DNA from: a virus
DNA: 21,953 nt
IMG/VR virus record: IMGVR_UViG_3300005613_000455
Span: 1-21,953 of that record
Direction: 5' to 3' (one strand)
Under the pieces are notes generated by a model. The model saw only the letters and a list, made by a program, of their open reading frames with translations, made no database searches and was not told the DNA's origin. This document shows, in pieces, positions 6,304-19,211 of this stretch. Made by a program: the position numbers and the translations under genes. Numbering within the stretch: the stretch's first letter is position 1; the number at the start of each line of letters is the position of its first letter.

Positions 6304-6624
6304 CTATTTTTTTCTTTTTTCAAGATCAGCCCAATATTTAAATATTAATTTAGACTGTTTATCACTAAATTTAACAGCTCGTTCTTTCATTAATTTTTCA
6401 TATTTACGTCTGACAAAAAGACCTGTGAAACCAGCTAGGTGACATACATCATCAAAGTCCCTACCCCCATATAAAAACCAACGATGCGCTTTGGATTTTA
6501 ATACGGAAGTGACCTTACTTTCATTTTGACATAAGGCATCGATGAACGCCAAGGATAATACGGCGCGCCATAGTTTTCTCTCTGGCGAAATGATTTCGCT
6601 CTCGTCTAGCTCCAGTTTAAACAC
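6304..6624 (-). CDS. Conserved phage protein of unknown function (PERKLW...DFDDVCHLAG family)
   Basis: The 106-residue protein contains PERKLWRAVLSLAFIDA (14-30), a Trp-containing helix (AHRWFLYGGRDFDDVCHLAG, about 46-65) and a VRRKYEKL helix. As I remember it, the pattern W.AVL...I.DA, then W....DF..VC.LAG....V recurs in small proteins of alphaproteobacterial phages with no known role; helical and basic at the end, it may bind DNA. The start is GTG at 6624. No Shine-Dalgarno site is present; instead a TTGATT-N16-TATTTC promoter ends exactly 7 nt before the GTG, so a leaderless mRNA is predicted. It is followed by Hsp20. Confidence 0.75.
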   Translation of the reverse strand: MFKLELDESEIISPERKLWRAVLSLAFIDALCQNESKVTSVLKSKAHRWFLYGGRDFDDVCHLAGFTGLFVRRKYEKLMKERAVKFSDKQSKLIFKYWADLEKRKK

Positions 6625-6717: not shown

Positions 6718-6746
6718 CAAATAGTGGTTTATCCAACCCCTGTCAA
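6718..6746 (-). promoter_or_regulatory. Candidate TTGACA promoter overlapping a stop codon
   Basis: A perfect TTGACA (6741-6746) lies 17 bp from a weak TATTTG (6718-6723) on the minus strand. It overlaps the stop codon of the ribbon-helix-helix gene. If active, transcripts would begin near 6711, just before the hairpin 6647-6710, which would then work as an attenuator. Confidence 0.35.
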
Positions 6747-6964
6747 GATCGTTTTCTTCTTTTTGCTGTAACTTTTTTTGATTTAATGTTCTTTCGCTTC
6801 CAGGTCATTACGCTGATATTCTCTTGTTTTGCTTGTTTTACAATAGCTTGATCAACCAGTTTTTCGACGTAACTCGCAGGACCCATGTAGTCCCCGCACA
6901 AAACAAGTAATGCTTCATGCGTAGGTTTTCGAATAGCAATACTTTTCCATCGTGAAATATCCAT
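6743..6964 (-). CDS. Ribbon-helix-helix-like small DNA-binding protein
   Basis: Residues 5-50 of this 73-residue protein read as a short basic strand (RWKSIAIRKPTH), then helix 1 (EALLVLCGDY) and helix 2 beginning at a small-residue turn (GPASYVEKLVDQAIVKQAKQ), the usual order in ribbon-helix-helix repressors that dimerise and place the strand in the DNA major groove. The C-terminal 20 residues are almost all Lys/Arg (KRKNIKSKKVTAKRRKR). It is the best candidate in the window for an operator-binding regulator, perhaps acting on the perfect inverted repeat at 17731-17762 or the dyads at 4935-5238. SD AAGGA lies in the end of the preceding gene, 2 nt before. Confidence 0.6.
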   Translation of the reverse strand: MDISRWKSIAIRKPTHEALLVLCGDYMGPASYVEKLVDQAIVKQAKQENISVMTWKRKNIKSKKVTAKRRKRS

Positions 6965-7635: not shown

Positions 7636-7831
7636 AGCTTTGCATCCTTTCATCTAATTGTTTTACGATCAGAGTAAGTTTGGAATTATCTTCTCGTAAC
7701 TCTATTATTTTTCTTGCCATCGCTTGTGTTAGATTCTGTAATTCCTCTAACCAATCTACTAGCTGTACCACCGATTGAGTACTCATCTTGTTATCAACCT
7801 TAGGTATTTTTTTCATTTTGACTGTTTTCAT
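7610..7831 (-). CDS. Small coiled-coil protein, 73 aa
   Basis: Residues 17-65 form a continuous heptad-like helix (VVQLVDWLEELQNLTQAMA, then ELREDNSKLTLIVKQLDERM), so a dimeric coiled coil is likely. The N-terminus is Lys-rich. No family is recognised. The ATG at 7831 has an AAGGAG site and overlaps the stop of the 191-aa gene by 4 bp (ATGA). Its own 3' end overlaps the next start. Confidence 0.7.
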   Translation of the reverse strand: MKTVKMKKIPKVDNKMSTQSVVQLVDWLEELQNLTQAMARKIIELREDNSKLTLIVKQLDERMQSYERPQTKH

Positions 7832-8403
7832 TTTTCTCCTTTATTGGTTTTGATCTTACTGATCATATTTAAGTTGTATGGCACTACACCATCAAACTTA
7901 TAATATTTGTCCTCAAATTTATGTTCTTTGATTACAAATTCTATTGTAGCTTTATCGCCAATTTTTCTAAAATTCCAAACTGCTTTTGCAGTTCCAAAAT
8001 ATTTAAATCGATTACCTTGTTCATCTTTTAAATACACCACTCGTGAAGGTCCCCATTCCGTTTGAATGTCATAGGTTAATGTACACTCTAATTCACAAAC
8101 TATTTTTTCATTCACAGAGCCAACAAATTGTCTGGATACACACTGAGCTGCATCTTTTGCATAATTTAATTTTGCAATGTATGCATAGTGATCCTCTACG
8201 TGTTGATCCTGCTGCGGCTTCCACTCACCCATTTTTTTTCTGTACCAAATATCAAGTGGAACTTCAAAACCAATAATGTTTTTTGCTTTTATTAAAGCAA
8301 CATCTAAATCGGTTGAAAGATTTTGAATATATTCCATGCCGTTATTTAAAATATAATAAATATCATCAGCGCCTTTAGATACATGGTAATAACTTGTTTT
8401 CAT
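7828..8403 (-). CDS. Hypothetical phage protein, 191 aa, leaderless
   Basis: This protein is not recognised. Residues 1-90 mix helices with many Tyr (SYYHVSKGADDIYYILNNG). The second half is beta-rich: ECTLTYDIQTEW, RVVYLKDEQGNRFKYFGT, then GDKATIEFVIKEHKFEDKYY, which resembles a small beta-barrel such as an OB-like fold, though no conserved signature confirms it. It begins the operon that ends with the ribbon-helix-helix gene. There is no Shine-Dalgarno site: TTGACA-N16-TATCTA ends exactly 7 nt before the ATG at 8403, so the mRNA should start at or next to the start codon. Confidence 0.7.
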   Translation of the reverse strand: MKTSYYHVSKGADDIYYILNNGMEYIQNLSTDLDVALIKAKNIIGFEVPLDIWYRKKMGEWKPQQDQHVEDHYAYIAKLNYAKDAAQCVSRQFVGSVNEKIVCELECTLTYDIQTEWGPSRVVYLKDEQGNRFKYFGTAKAVWNFRKIGDKATIEFVIKEHKFEDKYYKFDGVVPYNLNMISKIKTNKGEK

Positions 8404-8410
8404 ATTAGTA

Positions 8411-8438
8411 TAGATAAGATAAGATAGGAAAATGTCAA
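8411..8438 (-). promoter_or_regulatory. TTGACA-N16-TATCTA leaderless promoter
   Basis: On the minus strand TTGACA (8433-8438), a 16-bp spacer and TATCTA (8411-8416) within a GATAA tandem repeat (8412-8427). Seven nt separate the -10 from the ATG at 8403. The opposite strand carries the start of the 8476 gene, so this 72-bp gap is a divergent control region. Confidence 0.6.
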
Positions 8439-8460
8439 GGTATATTTATGATTCATTTAA

Positions 8461-8469
8461 TGGTAGCAT
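8461..8469 (+). promoter_or_regulatory. Extended -10, leaderless promoter for 8476
   Basis: TG-G-TAGCAT (TG 8461-8462, -10 at 8464-8469) lies 6 nt before the ATG at 8476. The gene has no Shine-Dalgarno site. No good -35 is seen, as is common with extended -10 promoters. This is the weakest of the five leaderless candidates. Confidence 0.35.
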
Positions 8470-8475
8470 GAACAC

Positions 8476-8706
8476 ATGAAATTATTTGCTTTATTCGGTT
8501 TAATCTGTTTCCTTGATAATAATCAATGGGGAGAATCCTGTGTTAATTTTTGGGAGGATCCTGTAGTTCATTATAGATCATTAGAAGCATGCGATGCAGC
8601 AGGTAAACGAAAAGGGCTTGAATTACGCGCTTATTTTGATAAAAATGGTCTTAAAATTACACAAGGGGAGCTTTGGTGCATTGAGTCAAAACAGAGAGAG
8701 TCTTGA
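8476..8706 (+). CDS. Hypothetical small Cys-containing protein, 76 aa
   Basis: This protein is not recognised. The N-terminus MKLFALFGLICFLD is hydrophobic but short, perhaps a weak signal sequence. Cys22, Cys39 and Cys68 occur in contexts (WGESCVNFW, SLEACDAAGKRKG, ELWCIES) that suggest a small disulfide-bonded export domain, because that pattern of Cys with Trp and an ITxGELWCIES-like end is typical of secreted microproteins. There is no Shine-Dalgarno site; an extended -10 lies 6 nt before the ATG. It is the first of three plus-strand genes. Confidence 0.6.
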   Translation: MKLFALFGLICFLDNNQWGESCVNFWEDPVVHYRSLEACDAAGKRKGLELRAYFDKNGLKITQGELWCIESKQRES

Positions 8707-9186: not shown

Positions 9187-9390
9187 TTATTCTTCCGTAC
9201 CCATTCTAGCAAAAAAATTCATGTCAACACTTTCGTACTTAACGCTACCGTTAATGTATTGCATGACTTCTTTTTTACAGAGTTCACATAACATAATGTT
9301 GGAGGACTGACTGATTCTTTTTAAAATATGAAAATGAGTATACTCATTACACTTGGGGCAAATACCTAAATTAAAATTTTTATTTTTCAT
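9187..9390 (-). CDS. Zinc-ribbon-like small protein, 67 aa
   Basis: Two CxxC knuckles (CPKC at 11-14 and CELC at 35-38), with aromatic and His residues between them (EYTHFHILKRI), fit a small zinc ribbon. The start overlaps the stop of the polymerase gene by 11 bp, so it is translationally coupled and ends the replication operon. No function can be assigned; possibilities are a transcription- or replication-factor accessory. The convergent plus-strand gene ends at 9127, and no strong terminator was found between (9128-9186). Confidence 0.7.
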   Translation of the reverse strand: MKNKNFNLGICPKCNEYTHFHILKRISQSSNIMLCELCKKEVMQYINGSVKYESVDMNFFARMGTEE

Positions 9391-11263
9391 TTACTTGTCT
9401 TAATTTTGTTTTACCCCAATTAGGTCCTATTTCGCAATCGACCTTTGAAGGTACACTCATCTTAACACAAGTTTCCATAATTTTCTTAATCTTTAATATA
9501 TCTTCGTCTGTATCTACTGAAAAACATAGTTCATCGTGTATTTGTATTAAAGGTAAAAAGCCTTCTTTATAACAATCTACCATCGCTTTTTTAACTTGAT
9601 CAGCTGCAGATCCCTGAATGAGTCTATTCAGAGCTTTGTACGTCATGGCTCTTTTGATGTTCTTACGACCGAACTGAGCGACAGCGTCTTCCTCCCGCAT
9701 CGGCTTATTAAGCCCGAACGTGTTAGGTTCCCAAAGATTAAAACGGCATTGTCTTCCCAACAACGTGTAGATATGACCTCTCGTGTCAGCAGTGCCCATA
9801 ACTTTTTCAGCGAGTTTTTTAACAAACGGAACTTTTTGATTGTATCGTAATATAATGTCTTGAGCATCTTCTTTTGCAATTCCTAATTCTCTGGATAGTT
9901 TATTCGTTCCCATACCGTAAAACAATCCTAAGTTTATGGTCTTCGCTTGGGACCTTGGTATGTTTGCCATATCAGCAACGGTTTGATGAAAGTCAGCATC
10001 TTCATTCTCATATGCTTTAATTAATGTTTCTGTTCCAGGATAACCACCTTCTACAAGCGATGAAAAATGAACTACAAGTCTTGGTTCCTGTTGAGAGTAA
10101 TCAAAACTACCCCAATGTGTTTTATCAGGTAAAAACAAACTTCTAATTCGTGGACCAAATTCTTTATTACGAGCTGGTATCTGTTGTAGGTTTGGGTTTC
10201 CATAACTTAATCGTCCTGATACTGTTCCTCCACCATTACCTCTTAATTGAAATATGTCTGAATGTATTCTGCCTTTGTGTTGGTGTTTTAAAATAGAATC
10301 AATAAAGGTTGAATGAAACTTTGATAATTCACGTGCCTGGCGGATATGTCCTGCAAGCTCATGTTGACAGTTCTGTAACCAATTAGCGGTGAAGCTAGGT
10401 TCTCCTGTTTTTTCGGTTTTAGGATAATCGACACCTTTACGATCAAACGCCTGGGCTACGCTCCTAGCAGCCCAAATGTCTACGTCAAGATTCGTTAGCT
10501 TTTTTATTTTCGCTAATTCCTGTTTCTCACGATCTATAAATTCTTTCTTTAAACCTTCTGCGCCTTCTAAATCTACGGCTACACCCTTCTCTTTCATTTC
10601 AATTAAGATAGGTAATAAATCCATCTCAATATCAAAAATATCATTTAACGATTGTTTATTAATCTCGTGTTGAAATCGTTGCCATAGCTCCCAGGTTAAT
10701 TGAGCATCTTGTTCTGCATAAAAACCAACATACTGCGCAGGTAATTTCCATAGTTCTGCTTTTGCATCCACACCCCACTCTGCTGCACGTTCATTTAATT
10801 CTGTCTCTGCTTTTAGTTTGCCTAGATATTCCTTGGCTAGCGCGTTCAAACTATAGCTAAATCGATTCTCATCAATTAACGCTCCAGCGATCATGGTATC
10901 AATAATACGTCCATTAATCTTAAATCCATAAGCTCTTAACCAACCCACGTCATAACTAGCGTTATGAAATAGTTTAATACCATCGCTTAACAGTTGTTTC
11001 TTCAACCATTTAAGGACCATATTTCGATCCATGTTACCACCTTGGGCATGCGCAATAGGAAAATAACCTTTAAAATCTGCTGTAGCGACTGCAATTCCTA
11101 CGATCTCTCCATCCATTCTAGGCCAGCCAGAACCTAGTTTTTTTAAATTAGGATCTCTAGTTTCTAAGTCGATAGCTAATGTCTTAGCACCTGTTAAATC
11201 AGGAAAGTGTTCAGGAGTTTTCCAATCTGAATGTTGAAATAAAAAATTAAGTTGATGGGACAT
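9380..11263 (-). CDS. polA: DNA polymerase I family A with 3'-5' exonuclease, Leu at the 762 position
   Basis: The 627-residue enzyme replicates phage DNA. The exonuclease domain (about 25-195) has all three motifs: Exo I IDLE (Asp32, Glu34), Exo II HNASYD (Asp105) and Exo III YAEQD (Asp186). The polymerase domain has motif A SFDYSQQEPR (Asp388), motif B RSQAKTINLGLFYG (Lys441) and motif C IHDE (Asp577). The 5' nuclease domain is absent, as in T7-type phage polymerases. In motif B the residue equivalent to E. coli Phe762 is Leu445; published work on marine virioplankton links Leu here with slower, possibly temperate-like phages, Phe and Tyr with lytic ones. The start overlaps the FkbM gene by 17 bp. 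Confidence 0.97.
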   Translation of the reverse strand: MSHQLNFLFQHSDWKTPEHFPDLTGAKTLAIDLETRDPNLKKLGSGWPRMDGEIVGIAVATADFKGYFPIAHAQGGNMDRNMVLKWLKKQLLSDGIKLFHNASYDVGWLRAYGFKINGRIIDTMIAGALIDENRFSYSLNALAKEYLGKLKAETELNERAAEWGVDAKAELWKLPAQYVGFYAEQDAQLTWELWQRFQHEINKQSLNDIFDIEMDLLPILIEMKEKGVAVDLEGAEGLKKEFIDREKQELAKIKKLTNLDVDIWAARSVAQAFDRKGVDYPKTEKTGEPSFTANWLQNCQHELAGHIRQARELSKFHSTFIDSILKHQHKGRIHSDIFQLRGNGGGTVSGRLSYGNPNLQQIPARNKEFGPRIRSLFLPDKTHWGSFDYSQQEPRLVVHFSSLVEGGYPGTETLIKAYENEDADFHQTVADMANIPRSQAKTINLGLFYGMGTNKLSRELGIAKEDAQDIILRYNQKVPFVKKLAEKVMGTADTRGHIYTLLGRQCRFNLWEPNTFGLNKPMREEDAVAQFGRKNIKRAMTYKALNRLIQGSAADQVKKAMVDCYKEGFLPLIQIHDELCFSVDTDEDILKIKKIMETCVKMSVPSKVDCEIGPNWGKTKLRQVNEK

Positions 11264-11927
11264 TGGCGTAGCTTTCGTAAATTATTTTTTCGTTTTCTAA
11301 CGGTGTAATTTTTGGTAATTTTTTATTAACAAAAATAAAATCAACTCCCATTAACTTTTTATTATAAAACATATTATCAATGTCAAATACTTTAAAATCA
11401 CAATTAGCCATAAAATTAATGTAATGTTCAAATCTTGGTGCATCCACATTATTGTGATGTACAGGACATTCTAATTGAACAAATTTAGTTTTACTAAATA
11501 AATCAAAGGACCCATCTATAATTTCTAACTCTGCACCCTGAACATCCATCTTAATTACATCGTACTTTTGATCAGGCAATAAGGCAGACAACGGTTTTGC
11601 TGTAACAACCTTTTCATAAGGTACTGCGTTAGATGTTTCTTTATACAAAGAATTACCTGTAGCAGAATGTTCTTCGTAGTAATAAAATTTTCTCTCCTCT
11701 TCTTTATATCCAACAGCAGCTTGTATAAAGGTTCCAAGCTTTTCACATTTATCTTTATGGTGATCGTTAGGATCTATTAAATAATAATTAGCATTTGGAT
11801 AAACTTTTTGAACACGTTCTGTCCAATCTCCTTTAAAACAACCAACATCAACGATGTTTTCAAATTTAACACCAAAATGTTTTAGTTTCCCATAAAAGTC
11901 AAATTTAAATTCTGTTGGTTTCATCAT
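11247..11927 (-). CDS. FkbM-family SAM methyltransferase (copy B)
   Basis: The 226-residue protein has a Rossmann methyltransferase core: motif I VDVGCFKGDW (26-35), an acidic loop YLIDPNDHH that would contact SAM, and IKMDVQGAELEII (125-137), the FkbM signature where Asp and Glu recur. FkbM enzymes O-methylate sugars, polyketides or protein glycans. Its substrate here is unknown; a host envelope glycan or a phage nucleotide or glycan modification is possible. It lies between a second FkbM gene (ATGA overlap) and polA (17-bp overlap), so it is co-expressed with replication genes. Despite equal length, little identity with copy A is apparent by eye, arguing against a recent tandem duplication. 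Confidence 0.9.
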   Translation of the reverse strand: MMKPTEFKFDFYGKLKHFGVKFENIVDVGCFKGDWTERVQKVYPNANYYLIDPNDHHKDKCEKLGTFIQAAVGYKEEERKFYYYEEHSATGNSLYKETSNAVPYEKVVTAKPLSALLPDQKYDVIKMDVQGAELEIIDGSFDLFSKTKFVQLECPVHHNNVDAPRFEHYINFMANCDFKVFDIDNMFYNKKLMGVDFIFVNKKLPKITPLENEKIIYESYANVPST

Positions 11928-12604
11928 GTTGCAGTTCCTAACATCATGTTATTAGGAATGTCCAAATAATGATCTATGACATCCTCCCATTGATATTCTG
12001 GAAGCATTTGTTTCATTTCGTTTTTATCGGGCTCACCATCAAACTCTACTAATATTTTTGGTTTGAAATTTCGTATGGTTTGCAATCCACCTTTAATGAT
12101 ATCTCTTTCCACACCCTCTGCATCAATTTTAAGTAAATCTAATCTATCTAAAAACCTATAATTAAATTTTGTATCTATTTTAGTAACCATGATTGGATAA
12201 CCCCATGGTTTATGTAAAGACTCAATGGTCAAAGCTCCTGTGTTAAACACTCTGGTGTAGTCAAGTTCTTCTACTTGTTTTACAGCATTGTAGTTATGGA
12301 CCCCCTCAAAAAAAGTTGTCACGTTATAACAACCGTTATTAATTACATTAAAATTTAATAATTGGTTTAAAAATCTTTGTATTTCAAAGGTATAGACATG
12401 CTTACATACTTTTGCCATTGCAACCGTATGAGTTCCAACATGAGCTCCTATTTCTATTACAACTGAATCTTTCGTAAGAAATGAAGAATAACATTCATAT
12501 ATTTTCTTCTCCCAACCACCCGTATTTTTAATAGATGATTGAATAAAATCATCACCAACAGGAATATAAATATTGTTACCAAAACAATTTACTTTATTAA
12601 TCAC
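11924..12604 (-). CDS. FkbM-family SAM methyltransferase (copy A)
   Basis: This 226-residue FkbM-type protein shows motif I VVIEIGAHVGTHTVAMAK (48-65), the SAM-binding YTFEIQ strand end and LLKIDAEGVERDII (157-170). The N-terminal part (DDFIQSSIKNTGGWEK) resembles the usual lead-in of phage FkbM proteins. The start is GTG at 12604, 1 nt after the DUF3310 stop; the AGAGAT sequence before it is a weak ribosome binding site, so coupling is likely. It is followed immediately by the second FkbM gene. As for copy B, the acceptor is unknown. Confidence 0.9.
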   Translation of the reverse strand: MINKVNCFGNNIYIPVGDDFIQSSIKNTGGWEKKIYECYSSFLTKDSVVIEIGAHVGTHTVAMAKVCKHVYTFEIQRFLNQLLNFNVINNGCYNVTTFFEGVHNYNAVKQVEELDYTRVFNTGALTIESLHKPWGYPIMVTKIDTKFNYRFLDRLDLLKIDAEGVERDIIKGGLQTIRNFKPKILVEFDGEPDKNEMKQMLPEYQWEDVIDHYLDIPNNMMLGTAT

Positions 12605-12605
12605 T

Positions 12606-12842
12606 TTATTTATCTCTTAAGTTTTCTATTTCTAACTCGCAGTAATGAATAATTTTTTTTAAATCTTCCACACCGTTCTTATCTTTGTAACGCATGACGT
12701 ATTTAATTATGTTGCCTTGAAAAAAAGATAAGTTATTTTTCGTAATAAATTTATAAGGTTGTATCAAATACTTTGTGTAATGATCTCCACCTTCTTGTTT
12801 TAAAGTTGGAAAGGAACGTTCCAACGCTTCTTTAATTGTCAT
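12606..12842 (-). CDS. DUF3310 family protein
   Basis: The 78-residue protein carries GGDHYTKYLIQP (18-29), KFITKNNLSFFQGNIIKYVM (31-50) and RYKDKNGVEDLKKIIHYCEL (51-70), the diagnostic blocks of DUF3310, a small family found in many phages next to nucleotide metabolism or replication genes. Its biochemical role is not established; annotations such as 'nucleotide kinase' come from fusions in other phages. It overlaps the HNH gene by 4 bp and is followed by the FkbM pair. Confidence 0.9.
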   Translation of the reverse strand: MTIKEALERSFPTLKQEGGDHYTKYLIQPYKFITKNNLSFFQGNIIKYVMRYKDKNGVEDLKKIIHYCELEIENLRDK

Positions 12843-13276
12843 ATTCTATCTTCCTCCTCTATGTAACCGATTCGTTCTTTATACACTTCTAAGATTTTTT
12901 GACAAGCCTCAATTGTCACCTGGCCTTTCAAATCATTAAATGCTGCAGTACAAAAAATAATGTTTTCTTTTGTGTAACCAATTTTGTTATTAATTCGATC
13001 CAAAGATATATTGGTTTTCACAATTCCTTTTCCTCTAACATGAGTCATAGGTGCACCTGTGTAAGCACAATAAATACCACCCAAGGTTTCTACTTGATTC
13101 CAAAAAACATAATAAAAATCATCAATCGCTAAATTAAAATATATTTTTTTTCTTTTTCTATAAGCGGAGTGTTTGCATCTACGTCTAGCTGCTGTAAATA
13201 AATTTTTTAAATAACCAGATAAAGTAGAATTATACCTGGCATCTGCTAATTTTTTTAACAATTTGTTTCTACCCAC
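12839..13276 (-). CDS. HNH endonuclease
   Basis: The 145-residue protein shows a zinc/HNH core at about 65-116: a Cys in IYCAYTGAP (Cys70), SLDRINNKIGYTKENIIFC (91-109) with Asp93 and Cys109, and AFNDLKG (Asn114). The N-terminal 45 residues are very basic (RRRCKHSAYRKRKK) and probably bind DNA. Phage HNH enzymes of this size act as free-standing homing-like, packaging or branched-DNA nucleases; its position within a tight replication operon favours a replication or recombination role over homing. The start overlaps the helicase stop by 8 bp and the stop overlaps DUF3310 by 4 bp. Confidence 0.85.
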   Translation of the reverse strand: MGRNKLLKKLADARYNSTLSGYLKNLFTAARRRCKHSAYRKRKKIYFNLAIDDFYYVFWNQVETLGGIYCAYTGAPMTHVRGKGIVKTNISLDRINNKIGYTKENIIFCTAAFNDLKGQVTIEACQKILEVYKERIGYIEEEDRI

Positions 13277-14849
13277 CGTGTTCCATCTCCATGTATTGAT
13301 TGTATACCCTTGTTAAAGGAAACGAATATTTATGTTTTGTTCCTAATAAAAATAAATTTTGTTTAGATCTGGTAGCTCCCGTGTACCAAACTCTTGCTTC
13401 ATTGGGTTTTAGTTTTGTTTTTTTATTGTCAAAGTCAGTAGGAAAGTTTGCGTATGCGAACAGCACTACGTTCTCTGCTTCTCCACCTTTGACTTGGTGA
13501 ATGGTATCTATGATAATGTTAGCTTTAGTAGTTAAGTCTACGTTTTGATTTTGCATTCTAAAAAAATATTTCTTTTGACGGTCGTTAAACTTTCTATTTA
13601 ATGCTTCCCACCAAGGTGTGCGTTCTTTAGCTGGATCCAATCCACCAAACACGGTTAGGTCTTCATAAGTCATTAACAGATTCGGATCAATATCTCTCCA
13701 AGCTTTTGTATCTAATTTTCTAAAACCGTATGCTATCTCTTCTATAAACATATATAAAATTTCAATATCTTCTTTTTTAATCTTTCCTCCTGTAATTAAA
13801 TCTTCCCATAACTGAATAGCTCTGTACTGGTTGATATCAAATGATTTTTTTCCTTTTTGATTTTGAAAATATATTCCATATTTTCTAGCTTCTTCTTCTA
13901 AAACTCTAACTCCCTCTCTTACTCTAGATAATAAAAACCATTTACCTGTAAATGCTTTAAAAGGTATTTCTTGAAAATTTTTAAAAGCAAGAATTTGTCC
14001 AGGTAACTTATTTGCTGGTTCAAATTCTTTTTCTTTTTTATCTGTGATTTTATTTTGTAGTAATTTACAAAAACTAAATATCTGTTTATTTAATCGGTGA
14101 GAGTATTTCAGGACCACATCCCGTCCAGGAAAGTCTTGAAAAGCCTGTACATCTGCACCATTCCAAGCATAGATTGCCTGGTCATCGTCTCCAGCTAAAA
14201 AGATCCTGTGTGCTTTTTCTCCTAGTTTGTAAACAAACTTCCATTGTAAAGGAGTTAAATCCTGCGCTTCGTCTATGATCATCACTTTAAAAGTAGGAGC
14301 TTGTCCATTATCTATAAAGTTAGATAACATATCGGTGAAGTCTACACGATGTTCTTGTTTAAACTCTTCGTACAAACGTATAATGTTTTTAAACTTGTCT
14401 ATACCAATTCGTTTAACATTCTCTCTACGATACACAAGCAAAGGATCTTTCATCATATTTCTTGCTTTATCATAAATACGTAAAGCCCAGTTTTTTCTTA
14501 CTCGATGTCCATCATAAGTATCATCAAATTCTAAAGAAATATTACCCATAGAGGTTTGAAACTCTCTAATATCTATGTCTTCGTCTAATACAGGTGTGGT
14601 TGAAAATTGTTGTCTACAAAAACTGTGTATGGTTCTAAAATTAGGTAAGTCATCATCTTGTAAATTAAATTTAATTTTAGCTCTTTCGATTCCTTCACTG
14701 ACTGCTTTTTTGGTAAAACTAAAATAAGCTATATCTTTTGGATCCATTCCTCTTTCAATATACTTCTCTATTCTATTTAATAGGGTAGTTGTTTTACCTG
14801 TTCCAGGTGGACCAAAAAGTTTAATTGTTTTAAAACGGTATGTTGTCAT
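13269..14849 (-). CDS. UvrD/Rep-like SF1A DNA helicase
   Basis: All helicase motifs of superfamily 1A are visible in this 526-residue protein: Q/I GPPGTGKTT (13-21), Ia FSFTKKAV (43-50), Ic TIHSFC, II MIIDEAQDLTP (190-200), III GDDDQAIYAWNG (220-231), IV KYSHRLNKQIF (248-258), V TIHQVKGGEAENVVLF (449-464) and VI VWYTGATRS (487-495). It is therefore a 3'-5' DNA unwinding motor, shorter than host UvrD (about 720 residues), without a C-terminal Tudor-like domain. It should serve replication or recombination-dependent replication with the neighbouring primase and polymerase. The start overlaps the primase stop by 20 bp. Confidence 0.95.
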   Translation of the reverse strand: MTTYRFKTIKLFGPPGTGKTTTLLNRIEKYIERGMDPKDIAYFSFTKKAVSEGIERAKIKFNLQDDDLPNFRTIHSFCRQQFSTTPVLDEDIDIREFQTSMGNISLEFDDTYDGHRVRKNWALRIYDKARNMMKDPLLVYRRENVKRIGIDKFKNIIRLYEEFKQEHRVDFTDMLSNFIDNGQAPTFKVMIIDEAQDLTPLQWKFVYKLGEKAHRIFLAGDDDQAIYAWNGADVQAFQDFPGRDVVLKYSHRLNKQIFSFCKLLQNKITDKKEKEFEPANKLPGQILAFKNFQEIPFKAFTGKWFLLSRVREGVRVLEEEARKYGIYFQNQKGKKSFDINQYRAIQLWEDLITGGKIKKEDIEILYMFIEEIAYGFRKLDTKAWRDIDPNLLMTYEDLTVFGGLDPAKERTPWWEALNRKFNDRQKKYFFRMQNQNVDLTTKANIIIDTIHQVKGGEAENVVLFAYANFPTDFDNKKTKLKPNEARVWYTGATRSKQNLFLLGTKHKYSFPLTRVYNQYMEMEHGG

Positions 14850-16371
14850 CAGTCGCGGTATGTTTTTTAAAATCTACTTTACGATCTTTAATTTGAATGG
14901 TTGATGGTTTCTTCACCCTCCACATCCGCGTATTATTCTTTTTAACATTCTGTGCACCACCTGTTCTCAAGTAATGAATCATTTCGTTACGCTTTTTGTT
15001 TTGACGGTTTTTAACCATGAAATCCATAAAGGTTTCTAATTTAAAATAAATCCAATCCTCTTCAAGAAAAATATAACCAGCTTCAATTTGTGAAATATCA
15101 TCTCCAGGTTCTTCGTCTTGAAAAAACTTTCTAACATAATATTCAAACTCATGTGCTTTAGAATCTTGTGTGTCTTCAATTACCTTTTGCATGTCTTTTA
15201 GTTTACGTAAAAATATTTTAAAATCTTTTGGTTTAATTGCATCCCAAACCATATCTGCTTGATCAAACAATGCTGTACCAAATAATTGTTGTTGAGTAAG
15301 TTGTTGGCCTGTAATCGTTACTTGTTTACCTTCAATCGTTAAATAGTAGATAGGTGGATCTGTATCTAATTTTTCAAACAACTCTACGCTAGGTTGATAC
15401 TGTTCTGGACCTATACCAAACTTACGTTGTCTACATAATTCTTTATTACAAAACTTTTTAGCAATAGGTGTATTGCACATGTAAAAATAACTTTGTTCTT
15501 TAATACCATTGATAATTTCTTCTAGTTCTGAATCGTTTTGAATAGGTGGCTTGCAAATAGTTTCGTTTCTCTTATATACTTCTTGTCTTAGATTTTTTGG
15601 GTTTTTAAGATGAGCTAACACAGCCATATTAAACAAAGCATTATTTCTATTTCCCTCACCTACACCTTCTTTAATGAAACCTTGAACACAAGGAGGATAT
15701 TGATCCCACTCTTCATCTGTATTACTGGGCTTCGCGATCTCAATCTTTTTAAATTGTTCTGGAGTAACTCTAAATTGTTTTACAAATTCTACGTAGTCTT
15801 CAAAGTCTAAAGCTTGTCCTGCATTATTTAATGCATAACGTGTAGTTGTATCAGAATTAAAATAAGGAATGTTTAAACATTTACCTGTACGCCATTCATT
15901 CTTTTGTGGATCCCATTTAATTTCATCCTCTGCTGGAAATTTATCTGCACCTTCACCACCAAAACCTAAATCAGATGCAAGTTCATTAATTTTTGCTCTC
16001 ATGTCTGCAGCTAATACAGAACCTTGAATATGTAATACTAAATGTAAACCACCCGTTTTAGAACGGTATGGCATCAATGGATATTTTTTTTCTCTAATCT
16101 TTTTTATAACTGGGGTTGGATCTTTGCCATAAATGATATTATCGACATCAATACAACCCCAAGAACAAGTCTTATCCCTACGAGTAGGGATAAGACCAAT
16201 GCTGATTTCTCCGCCGAGGTGTTTTGCAATTACTTCTTCGGTAACTGTTTCGTTAATCCGTCTGTATCGTCCTTCCGCCTTACCATCACGTTCTCTCTCA
16301 CCATTGTGAGAAAAGACGTAATAGTTTTCCCTTTGACAATCAAACAGATCTAGAAAATCAGCAGCTTTCAT
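14830..16371 (-). CDS. Archaeo-eukaryotic-type primase with SSB-like C-terminal tip
   Basis: The N-terminal half of this 513-residue protein is an AEP primase: catalytic CIDVDN (Asp75, Asp77), then RSKTGGLHLVLH (Ser104, His110) and NIPYF. A PriCT-like helical region follows (GVGEGNRNNALFNMAVLAHL, about 236-255) and a Cys cluster (C299, C308, C313 in YMCNTPIAKKFCNKELC), possibly a zinc or iron-sulfur site. Residues 340-513 are unassigned. The protein ends TATDDNIPF, strikingly like the acidic tip of bacterial SSB (DDDIPF) that recruits replication proteins. It should make primers for the polymerase encoded in the same operon. Start and stop overlap the neighbours by 1 and 20 bp. Confidence 0.88.
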   Translation of the reverse strand: MKAADFLDLFDCQRENYYVFSHNGERERDGKAEGRYRRINETVTEEVIAKHLGGEISIGLIPTRRDKTCSWGCIDVDNIIYGKDPTPVIKKIREKKYPLMPYRSKTGGLHLVLHIQGSVLAADMRAKINELASDLGFGGEGADKFPAEDEIKWDPQKNEWRTGKCLNIPYFNSDTTTRYALNNAGQALDFEDYVEFVKQFRVTPEQFKKIEIAKPSNTDEEWDQYPPCVQGFIKEGVGEGNRNNALFNMAVLAHLKNPKNLRQEVYKRNETICKPPIQNDSELEEIINGIKEQSYFYMCNTPIAKKFCNKELCRQRKFGIGPEQYQPSVELFEKLDTDPPIYYLTIEGKQVTITGQQLTQQQLFGTALFDQADMVWDAIKPKDFKIFLRKLKDMQKVIEDTQDSKAHEFEYYVRKFFQDEEPGDDISQIEAGYIFLEEDWIYFKLETFMDFMVKNRQNKKRNEMIHYLRTGGAQNVKKNNTRMWRVKKPSTIQIKDRKVDFKKHTATDDNIPF

Positions 16372-17177
16372 TAAAACGGAGTCTCTTCCTTACCTTGCGA
16401 GCTACTAGCTGTTACACTAGCTGCTTCCGTTTTAACCTCTGCCGACTCACCAGCATCACTGACATTCTGCATTCTGGAAGCTGATTCTCTGAACGCCACA
16501 GATCTTTGAATTGCTTCCGCAGGTGCCATCCCAGCGTAGTTTACTACCCAGCCGTACCAAGTACCGAGATTGTTTTTCTCCAACGTTGTGCTGAGTGTGT
16601 AAATTTGTGCGTGATTAGGAAGTTGCTGACGCTTACCATTAATCTCCTCATACTGAGCAAGTTGCATGGTATTCCATCTTTGCGACTTCTTATACTGAGT
16701 TCTAGACATTGTGATAATCCCATTGTCCAGTACATTGTTATTCTCATCAAGTCTAGTTACAAAATGATGAGCAGTTCTCTCAATATAATTACCGTTCTCT
16801 AATCGGTCCTTACCTCTTTCATCTTTATGCGTTTTAGCAATGATGTTTTCAGATATATCGTAGGATCCAACAGGTCTGTTTGTACCAGACTCTCTATCTG
16901 CCCACTCTAAATCTTTGACATAGAAGTAAGAAGGAATAACTCTAATAGATTGAAATACTTGATTCAATGCTGAGTTTAGAATCATTCCAGGTTTAGCTGA
17001 TTCAATATAATTTGCTGAACCAGGTTCTATTACATCAGATTGTTTAGCAACAATCTTGAAGTAAGGCATAGATACAGATTGAGCATCTATGTTATCAAAC
17101 GAATTCTTTAGTAATGCATTTAAATCTACATTAGCTACACTTGAACTCGTTGTCTTTTTTTCTACCGCTTTTGACAT
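16371..17177 (-). CDS. Phage SSB-like protein
   Basis: This 268-residue protein has a disordered, Ser/Thr-rich start, a beta-rich core at about 37-230 (SMPYFKIVAKQSDVIEPG, VIPSYFYVKDLEWADRE, TWYGWVVNYAGM) with many aromatic residues, and an acidic flexible C-terminus that ends EETPF, like the phenylalanine-ending tips of SSB proteins. Marine phage genomes carry this family beside primase genes, where it is thought to be single-stranded DNA binding; homology to a characterised SSB cannot be seen by eye. One-base overlaps join it to the genes on both sides, so it is made in step with the primase. Confidence 0.65.
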   Translation of the reverse strand: MSKAVEKKTTSSSVANVDLNALLKNSFDNIDAQSVSMPYFKIVAKQSDVIEPGSANYIESAKPGMILNSALNQVFQSIRVIPSYFYVKDLEWADRESGTNRPVGSYDISENIIAKTHKDERGKDRLENGNYIERTAHHFVTRLDENNNVLDNGIITMSRTQYKKSQRWNTMQLAQYEEINGKRQQLPNHAQIYTLSTTLEKNNLGTWYGWVVNYAGMAPAEAIQRSVAFRESASRMQNVSDAGESAEVKTEAASVTASSSQGKEETPF

Positions 17178-17713
17178 TATTTGTCCTCCTTTATTACGGT
17201 TTCAGTTTTTACATACGCGCCAAACAAAGTGTCTGGAATGTCTACACCTTTTTGCGTTTGTTCTTTTACAAACGCTTTCAGTTGCATAGCATTCACAGTT
17301 TGCTTTTTATTGACTACGATGTTTTGTAGTTGAGGTTGTGACTTGATCAGTTCCTCAAGCAGTCTTGCTTTATCGTCTTGTCCCTTCGTAAATGGAACAG
17401 CGATTTCGTTACGAATTAAGTCTTCGTGACCATTCGCACGTAACCACTCAAACGCTGCATCCTCATTTGATTTAGGTATGCGCGCAAAGTAGTTGGTTTT
17501 TAGTCCAACGTAACTGCCGTCTTCAAGTGTAAAGTCCCTCATACCAAGCGAAGATAGAAGTGCTGGTATTTCTTCTGTAGATATACGTTCTTCATCAATC
17601 TTCATTTGTTTAAGTTTTGCCTCCAACTCTTCGATATCACCACGAATCGATAGTAGTTGATTGCACTTAGCACTTAAAGAAGCAACGCCGTTGTCGTTTA
17701 TTTTAATCGACAT
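17177..17713 (-). CDS. Conserved phage replication-module protein, 178 aa
   Basis: The protein opens the replication operon. It starts at ATG 17713 (178 residues) because AAGGAGG lies just 5 nt before it; a further upstream ATG would lack a site. Residues 20-60 are a coiled coil (LLSIRGDIEELEAKLKQMK) and then a recurring phage pattern: LLSSLGMRDFTLEDGSYV, FARIPKSNEDAAFEWLRANG, HEDLIRNEIAVPF, and LKAFVKEQTQKG with DTLFGAYV at the end. This pattern occurs in many marine phages beside replication genes, with no established biochemistry. The one-base overlap with the SSB-like gene indicates tight coupling. Confidence 0.75.
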   Translation of the reverse strand: MSIKINDNGVASLSAKCNQLLSIRGDIEELEAKLKQMKIDEERISTEEIPALLSSLGMRDFTLEDGSYVGLKTNYFARIPKSNEDAAFEWLRANGHEDLIRNEIAVPFTKGQDDKARLLEELIKSQPQLQNIVVNKKQTVNAMQLKAFVKEQTQKGVDIPDTLFGAYVKTETVIKEDK

Positions 17714-17730
17714 ATGTGCCTCCTTATAGA

Positions 17731-17762
17731 TTGACATATAAACTTTATTAATTATATGTCAA
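17731..17762. promoter_or_regulatory. Perfect inverted-repeat divergent promoters (overlapping)
   Basis: TTGACATATAA (17731-17741) and TTATATGTCAA (17752-17762) form a perfect 11-bp inverted repeat with a 10-bp spacer. Each strand reads TTGACA-N16-TATATG, so the -35 of one promoter overlaps the -10 of the other. The plus -10 (17753-17758) ends 7 nt before the helicase ATG (17766), predicting a leaderless mRNA. The minus transcript would start near 17728 and still include the AAGGAGG site. Confidence 0.75.
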
Positions 17763-17765
17763 GCC

Positions 17766-19211
17766 ATGGGATATAAAAAATATAAATTCAAAACAAAACC
17801 GTACGAACATCAAATGAAAGCATTAGAAACTTCTTTTGATAAAGAATTCTATGCATTATTTATGGAGATGGGTACAGGAAAATCTAAAGTCCTACTAGAT
17901 ACAGTAGGTATATTATATGACAACCACAAGATAGAGGGGTTGTTAATTATTGCACCTAAATCTGTTTATTCTGTTTGGGCCAGGACAGAAATACCAACAC
18001 ACTTTCCTTTTTTACATACATCTGATGTTATCATGTGGAAAAACTCTGCAACTACAAAATTTAAATTAGAAATGAAACGTTTGATGAGTGATAATAAAAA
18101 ATTTAAAATTTTTATTATGAACATAGAAGCTTTGCAACAAGGTGGTAAAGCTATGGAAGCTGCTTATAAATTTTTAAAAAAATTTAAATCGTTAATGGTA
18201 ATAGATGAGTCTAGTAAAATTAAAAACCCTAATGCAAATAGAACGAAAAATATTCATATATTAGGAGAGTTAGCCCCGTACCGTAGAATACTAACAGGGA
18301 CCCCAGTAACCAATAATCCTTTAGACGTTTACTCACAGCTAGAGTTTTTAAATAAAAATATTTTAGGTTTTTCATCATTTTATTCTTTCCGTAATCGTTA
18401 TTGTGTTTTTCACGAAAGTGTTCAAAACGGTAGGATTGTTAAGTTTCCTAAGTTTTACACCAATCTAGCTGAGCTTGAACAAAAAGTGAAAAAGTTTTCT
18501 TATAGAGTAACCAAGGATGAATGTCTAGACCTACCAGAAAAGGTTTATTTAAAAAGACATTGTGAGCTTACGAAAGAACAGAAAAAAGTTTACGATGAAT
18601 TAAAGATACAAGCTATGGCTATCATTGAAGATGAAAGCGTAAGCTTTACCAATAAACTGACTGAAATACTTAGACTACATCAGCTGTGTAATGGCTTTGT
18701 TATGTCTGATGATGGAAACATTATTGAATATAAAAATAATGAGAAACTACAAAACTTAAAAGACATTATTGAAGAGTGCCAGGGTAAAGTTATTATCTGG
18801 GCTACTTACACTTATAACATTAAAATGATCGAACAGTTTTTAAAAGCAGAGTACGGATCCGAATCTGTTGTAACTTTTTATGGCCAGGACTCTAATGAAA
18901 AAAGAATTGAAGCTCGTGAGTCTTTTCAAAATAGTAAGAAGGTAAGATTTTTTGTAGGTAACACACAAACAGGTGGAATGGGTTTAACCTTAACTAACTG
19001 CAACACCATGGTTTATTATAATAATAATTATTCGTATGAACTTCGTGAACAATCAGAAGCAAGGATACATAGAATCAGTCAACAAAATAAATGTACTTAC
19101 ATAGACATCGTTGTCAAAGATACGATTGATGAAAAGGTAATAGATATTTTAAAAAATAAACTTAAGCTTTCGGCGAAGATTTTAGGCGAGCAAGCTCGGG
19201 AATGGATTTAA
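17766..19211 (+). CDS. SNF2-family helicase/ATPase
   Basis: The 481-residue protein has the SF2/SNF2 motifs in order: YEHQMKAL (13-20, Q-type), Walker A MGTGKSK (35-41), IIAPKSV, motif II IDESSKIKN (146-154), motif III LTGTPVTNN (176-184), then FYGQDSNEKR, motif V QTGGMGLTLT (401-410) and VI QSEARIHRISQQ (429-440). Such ATPases translocate on double-stranded DNA and in phages probably support replication or recombination. There is no Shine-Dalgarno site; the promoter's -10 lies 7 nt from the ATG, so the mRNA should be leaderless. It runs opposite to the replication operon, and its end overlaps the Zn microprotein on the other strand. Confidence 0.95.
   Translation: MGYKKYKFKTKPYEHQMKALETSFDKEFYALFMEMGTGKSKVLLDTVGILYDNHKIEGLLIIAPKSVYSVWARTEIPTHFPFLHTSDVIMWKNSATTKFKLEMKRLMSDNKKFKIFIMNIEALQQGGKAMEAAYKFLKKFKSLMVIDESSKIKNPNANRTKNIHILGELAPYRRILTGTPVTNNPLDVYSQLEFLNKNILGFSSFYSFRNRYCVFHESVQNGRIVKFPKFYTNLAELEQKVKKFSYRVTKDECLDLPEKVYLKRHCELTKEQKKVYDELKIQAMAIIEDESVSFTNKLTEILRLHQLCNGFVMSDDGNIIEYKNNEKLQNLKDIIEECQGKVIIWATYTYNIKMIEQFLKAEYGSESVVTFYGQDSNEKRIEARESFQNSKKVRFFVGNTQTGGMGLTLTNCNTMVYYNNNYSYELREQSEARIHRISQQNKCTYIDIVVKDTIDEKVIDILKNKLKLSAKILGEQAREWI

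Follow-up and report, generated by a model that had tools for sequence, protein, structure and literature searches.

The window, a 21,953-nt stretch of viral DNA (IMG/VR record IMGVR_UViG_3300005613_000455), contains at positions 17731 to 17762 a 32-bp inverted repeat that probably holds two interleaved, outward-firing promoters of the host σ70 type found in alphaproteobacteria, arranged face to face. The repeat is located in the 52-bp gap that separates a replication operon from an SNF2-type helicase gene pointing the other way. Many related marine phages have similar facing promoters at this junction, a recurrence that speaks for a function and against chance. The geometry of the pair, its recurrence at this junction, its variable spacing and the absence of the covariation expected of an operator are features of the sequences themselves.

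Palindrome and promoter motifs

The repeat (TTGACATATAAACTTTATTAATTATATGTCAA) has the form TTGACATATAA-N10-TTATATGTCAA, with perfect 11-bp arms and a 10-nt centre, and TTGACA-N16-TATATG can be read on each strand. Thus, the perfect arms and the identical promoter motifs on both strands described in the original prediction are exact in the sequence. The rightward (helicase) promoter has its -35 element, TTGACA, at 17731 to 17736 and its -10 element, TATATG (TTATAT in the alphaproteobacterial form), at 17753 to 17758 of the plus strand. The leftward (replication operon) promoter has the same two elements on the minus strand, at 17757 to 17762 and 17735 to 17740, respectively, and the spacer is 16 bp in both. 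The -10 element of each promoter and the opposing -35 element have 2 bp in common (17735 to 17736 and 17757 to 17758), so that the proposed location of each -35 within the opposing -10 holds as an overlap but not as full containment.

Allowing up to 3 mismatches, the palindrome matches nowhere else in the window and has no match in 100 dinucleotide shuffles. When the 52-bp gap alone is shuffled, an 11-bp inverted repeat appears in 0.045% of the shuffles, and 0.03% have TTGACA on both strands; any 11-bp inverted repeat of this kind is seen in 1 of 20 Markov-simulated windows. Another perfect inverted repeat, with 13-bp arms (GTCTTATCCCTAC/GTAGGGATAAGAC) and a 2-nt centre, is found at 16169 to 16196, inside the primase ORF, and is listed as terminator-like.

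TATATG matches the Escherichia coli -10 element in 4 of 6 positions and lacks the final T (the T at -7 that is favoured in E. coli), which is why a generic E. coli-type σ70 scan of the window, requiring this T, lists neither site. The missing T and the 16-bp spacer of the window count against the promoter reading. The motifs conform to the alphaproteobacterial promoter consensus CTTGAC-N17-CTATAT (PMC2873474): the window sequence, TTGAC-N16-TTATAT, is one base short of its spacing, and relatives with a 33-bp pair, which carry TTGAC-N17-(C/T)TATAT on both strands, match the spacing exactly. A promoter model trained on relatives with 36- to 38-bp pairs, with the window left out, gives +17731 and -17762 the shared top score in the window, 19.4 bits, against 16.4 bits for the site ranked after them; the training -10 elements were chosen as the best TATATA matches, so that the model favours such sites. 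The most common -10 elements in this class are TATATA and TATATG. The third-best match, at -6746, starts within the last bases of ORF 6743-6964, ahead of ORF 6304-6624. The fourth (TTGACATTTTCCTATCTTATCTTATCTATAC, at -8438 on the minus strand) is found in the divergent gap 8404 to 8475, upstream of ORF 7828-8403 and pointing away from ORF 8476-8706.

Helicase homologues with 43 to 51% identity are encoded by the HTVC023P-type phages (HTVC023P, HTVC027P, and 023Pt_psg01) and by Phage DSL-LC04. The host of HTVC023P and HTVC027P is Pelagibacter HTCC1062, and a SAR11-like host is likely for the window as well. No RNA polymerase gene is present in HTVC027P, which reportedly depends on the host enzyme (PMC12753301); a search of ten records for the phage RNA polymerase domain (PF00940) gave no match, but the control genomes gave none either, so that this search carries no weight by itself. 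The searched literature on HTVC023P-type phages does not mention promoters, and searches for the motif text led only to papers on unrelated subjects. The motifs described here provide a model of promoters for phages that infect SAR11-type hosts, about whose transcription little is known.

Recurrence of the facing pair and its unit of conservation

An identical copy of the palindrome is found in the 51-kb contig L001. The closest non-identical relative, L005, with a helicase 90% identical to that of the window, has TTGACATATAAACTTTTAAAAATATAAGTCAA at this place and retains 9 of the 11 arm pairs; L114 (70% identity) has a 33-bp facing pair. In more distant relatives, the facing promoters are often kept without the arms. 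Loss of the palindrome despite retained gene order, which the original prediction named as refuting it, is thus seen in part. Gene order is also retained without the facing pair. In the HTVC023P-type pelagiphages, the helicase gene and the replication operon likewise diverge from this junction, and 023Pt_psg01 has a 37-bp facing pair there; in contrast to the window, HTVC027P has TTGAC on the helicase side only, and HTVC023P has it on neither side and contains a different AT-rich inverted repeat. The lineages of HTVC023P and HTVC027P show that the pair is not required for the divergent order.

Recurrence was assessed in an unbiased set of helicase homologues, picked irrespective of motif, which gave 86 distinct upstream regions. 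A facing TTGAC...GTCAA pair is present in 41 of these, compared with 0.18% of shuffles. The pairs are 32 (two regions, including the window), 33 (seven), 34 (five), 36 (four), 37 (sixteen), 38 (five), 40 (one), or 41 bp (one) long, and none of the 86 regions has a pair of 22 to 31 bp. A scan of 80 loci shows 37 facing pairs within 160 bp of the helicase gene versus 7 in the remaining 378 kb, and a whole-record search of 14 records shows 0 to 3 pairs in each. A separate palindrome scan of viral contigs, with the pattern TTGACATAT-N8-20-ATATGTCAA, finds at least 119 loci, with a peak at 33 bp (at least 78 among the matches listed); at least 72 of the listed 33-bp matches, 37 of them distinct, adjoin a divergent helicase homologue. 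Many of the loci come from related contigs, so that these counts overstate their independence. The palindrome scan fixes the arms by design, and its listed matches give lower bounds; it was therefore the unbiased set that served to assess constraint. Together with the independently trained model, the recurrence at the junction supports the proposal of overlapping, outward-firing promoters face to face between the replication operon and the SNF2 helicase. As far as the searched literature shows, it is new for interleaved promoters to turn up repeatedly at a single junction in a group of phages.

Other arrangements were also seen. Upstream of the helicase gene in L212, the -35 elements are back to back (TTGACAATGTCAA), and the promoters point apart rather than facing each other. 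Four viral contigs with no helicase homologue near the site (L026, L029, L051, and L135) have a 32-bp TTGACATAT...ATATGTCAA element, the long centre of which, TTGACATATGGTAGTCATACCATATATGTCAA, is nearly palindromic.

The original prediction saw in the repeat an ideal operator for a dimeric repressor, such as a ribbon-helix-helix protein encoded at 6743 to 6964. In such an operator, the 11-bp arms would be half-sites, and repression would silence both promoters. The symmetry is perfect in the window and in many of the 33-bp relatives, and palindromic operators often overlap divergent promoters. However, an operator of this kind has a fixed half-site spacing and covarying half-sites, and neither is found here. 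The pairs range from 32 to 41 bp, with spacings that differ by 4 to 5 bp among relatives, and the difference of about 4 bp between the two length modes would rotate the half-sites relative to each other while leaving the two promoters intact. About 4 of the 12 unbiased 33- and 34-bp relatives, as counted by reading the listing, keep arms at least 10 bp long. Outside the core, mirror positions behave independently: in the 33-bp class (n = 37), the observed counts are 14, 24, 6, and 18, versus 12.8, 25.7, 6.1, and 17.9 expected under independence. The ORF at 6743 to 6964 has no ribbon-helix-helix match in Pfam, PHROGs, or NCBIfam, and searches for RHH_1 and HTH_3 in the window record and its 51-kb twin found no match. 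An operator thus appears improbable; its repressor, if there is one, would be of a kind that these profiles do not recognise.

Relatives of the 37-bp class retain both -10 cores at a distance of 16 or 17 bp from the respective -35 element, and the remainder of the sequence drifts. With varying spacing, usually lost long arms and independent mirror positions, selection appears to act on the two -35/-10 pairs and not on a dimer operator of fixed layout. In this view, the palindrome is a by-product: where TATA(T) is followed by TGTCAA, the two overlap into TATATGTCAA, and this is the case on either side. The flanking GAAAG was considered as an extension of the symmetry and rejected: on one side, it is mostly the beginning of the coding sequence (ATGAAAGAA), and on the other it is a leader element that alternates with AGGAG. 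In E. coli, the divergent units bioA/bioBFCD and argE/argCBH are separated by overlapping, outward-firing promoters that likewise face each other, and these carry operators for BirA or ArgR. The phage junction differs from them in having no match to a cognate repressor and no operator-like constraint.

It is also highly improbable that the repeat is a structural element, such as a hairpin or cruciform, or a replication origin at the junction of the replication genes. An AT-rich palindrome between divergent replication genes is what such an element might look like, and the GC skew shifts with gene direction at this point; nevertheless, most of the relatives with facing promoters lack a long stem, inner mirror positions show no covariation, and the skew change simply tracks gene orientation.

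A tree of 89 helicases, built by a quick method and with several forks open, shows 9 changes for the 32- to 34-bp class (mean of 14.1 in shuffles) and 12 for the 36- to 41-bp class (mean of 24.0). These numbers are lower than in the shuffles, yet still high, indicating that the arrangement is clustered but labile. The clade formed by the window, L005, and L114 belongs to a larger group, with HTVC023P among its members, in which the pair is mostly absent. The window's clade is separate from the other facing-promoter clades on the helicase tree, so that homology of the pairs is uncertain and an independent origin is possible.

Flanking genes and predicted starts

The rightward unit consists of a single gene (17766 to 19211, plus strand) for an SNF2-type superfamily II DNA helicase (PHROG 62; E value, 8e-127), the end of which abuts convergent genes. 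The leftward unit begins with a gene (17177 to 17713, minus strand) for a DUF7307 protein similar to Pam3 gp33 (PF23984; E value, 3.5e-29; phrog_2378). The remainder of the replication operon (9187 to 17177, minus strand), assigned from profile matches, encodes a Pam3 gp34-like protein, primase, a second helicase, an HNH nuclease, and a DUF3310 protein, as well as two methyltransferase-like ORFs (a label that comes from reading the sequence only), PolA, and a small zinc-ribbon-like ORF. In L158, L176, and L177, and in HTVC027P (gp01), the first leftward gene encodes a conserved protein of about 120 to 130 amino acids with a GDPAIIG motif (phrog_5888), which is absent from the corresponding place in the window.

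The leftward gene most likely starts at the ATG at 17713, judging from the AAGGAGG upstream of it (17719 to 17725). With initiation 7 nt beyond the -10 element, leftward transcription is predicted to start at 17727 to 17729 on the minus strand, which would give the replication operon a leader of about 15 nt carrying this AAGGAGG. On the other side, the helicase ATG at 17766 lies 3 nt past the palindrome and 8 nt after the -10 element, with no Shine-Dalgarno sequence upstream. The rightward start, placed by the same 7-nt rule at 17764 to 17766 of the plus strand, would fall at or next to this ATG, and the helicase mRNA is predicted to be leaderless.

L005 resembles the window in this respect. 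In the remaining unbiased 32- to 34-bp members, the ATG close to the pair is that of the leftward gene, 2 to 6 nt after the opposing -35 element; in the 36- to 38-bp class, the corresponding gaps are mostly larger. Provided that initiation takes place at the usual distance of 7 nt, one of the two mRNAs from such a pair is predicted to be leaderless or nearly so. Should the predicted starts be true, these would be leaderless phage mRNAs with the start codon directly against the opposing promoter.

Proposed polymerase competition and known systems

From this layout, we infer promoter activity, the transcription starts, leaderless translation, steric competition, and the use of the pair to set an expression ratio. 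Each -35 element lies in the discriminator and start region of the other promoter, so that one bound polymerase would exclude a second, and it follows from the geometry that RNA polymerase would occupy only one of the promoters at any instant. The rightward promoter would yield the predicted leaderless helicase mRNA and the leftward one the replication operon transcript; initiation would alternate between them, with their relative strength setting the ratio of the two outputs. In bidirectional promoters, polymerase cannot engage both directions simultaneously, and strong activity in one direction represses the opposing transcript by competition (PMC12825309). The phage promoters, being near consensus, should lie in the range where such competition matters. 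A tentative proposal is that abundant marine phages keep interleaved pairs, regained or lost several times, so that polymerase competition without a regulator fixes the ratio of helicase to replisome, often with one mRNA leaderless.

In its strict form, the either/or switch of the original prediction would have one promoter chosen and the other locked out, committing the phage to the helicase or the replisome. Double occupancy would be excluded by the overlap, competition in bidirectional promoters does repress the opposing transcript when one direction is strongly active (PMC12825309), and a real switch with such an overlap exists in the Bacillus subtilis plasmid pLS20 (PMC4207663). The pLS20 promoters Pr and Pc are the closest precedent for the geometry: they fire outward, and their proposed -10 and -35 boxes coincide exactly with the opposing -35 and -10 boxes (PMC4207663), whereas the elements overlap by 2 bp in the window and overlap or lie a few base pairs apart in its relatives. 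However, Pr is weak and activator dependent, and one of the pLS20 products is the regulator Rco (PMC4207663). The phage promoters are both near consensus, the arrangement recurs across a phage group, and neither the helicase nor the DUF7307/replication unit encodes anything recognisable as a regulator. An encoded regulator is a trait of the pLS20 switch, not of this geometry. A lasting choice needs feedback and would not follow from momentary exclusion alone. Moreover, exclusion would last no longer than one initiation event, replication functions are found in both units, and several related phages lack the facing pair. Taken together, this makes a strict switch unlikely.

Competition between the promoters also has to be weighed against simple space saving, with interleaving imposed by the short gap and of no regulatory consequence, which is possible but doubtful as the whole explanation. 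The intergenic gaps in divergent relatives are mostly about 45 to 75 bp whatever the promoter arrangement (lengths below 33 bp were left out as over-extended start codons), which makes compaction a serious partial explanation. In the 32- to 34-bp class, one gene starts 2 to 6 nt past the opposing -35 element, and weak bidirectional promoters barely compete (PMC12825309). On the other hand, relatives with similarly short gaps do without facing pairs, and between two near-consensus promoters competition is to be expected. Interleaving would save space in any case, and compaction is probably part of the reason for its retention. Promoter overlap is known from single examples; one junction with many natural variants and two spacing modes provides a comparative set for asking if selection favours polymerase competition or if competition only comes along with tight packing of the genome.

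The bidirectional promoters described by Warman, Grainger, and colleagues (PMC12825309) likewise combine two mutually exclusive polymerase orientations in a short segment that yields divergent mRNAs. These promoters share one -10 element, and their starts are usually 18 bp (also 10 or 23 bp) apart (PMC12825309). In contrast, the phage -10 elements are separate and located at opposite ends of the repeat (17735 to 17740 and 17753 to 17758), and the predicted starts are about 37 bp apart, which rules out a bidirectional promoter with a shared -10 element.
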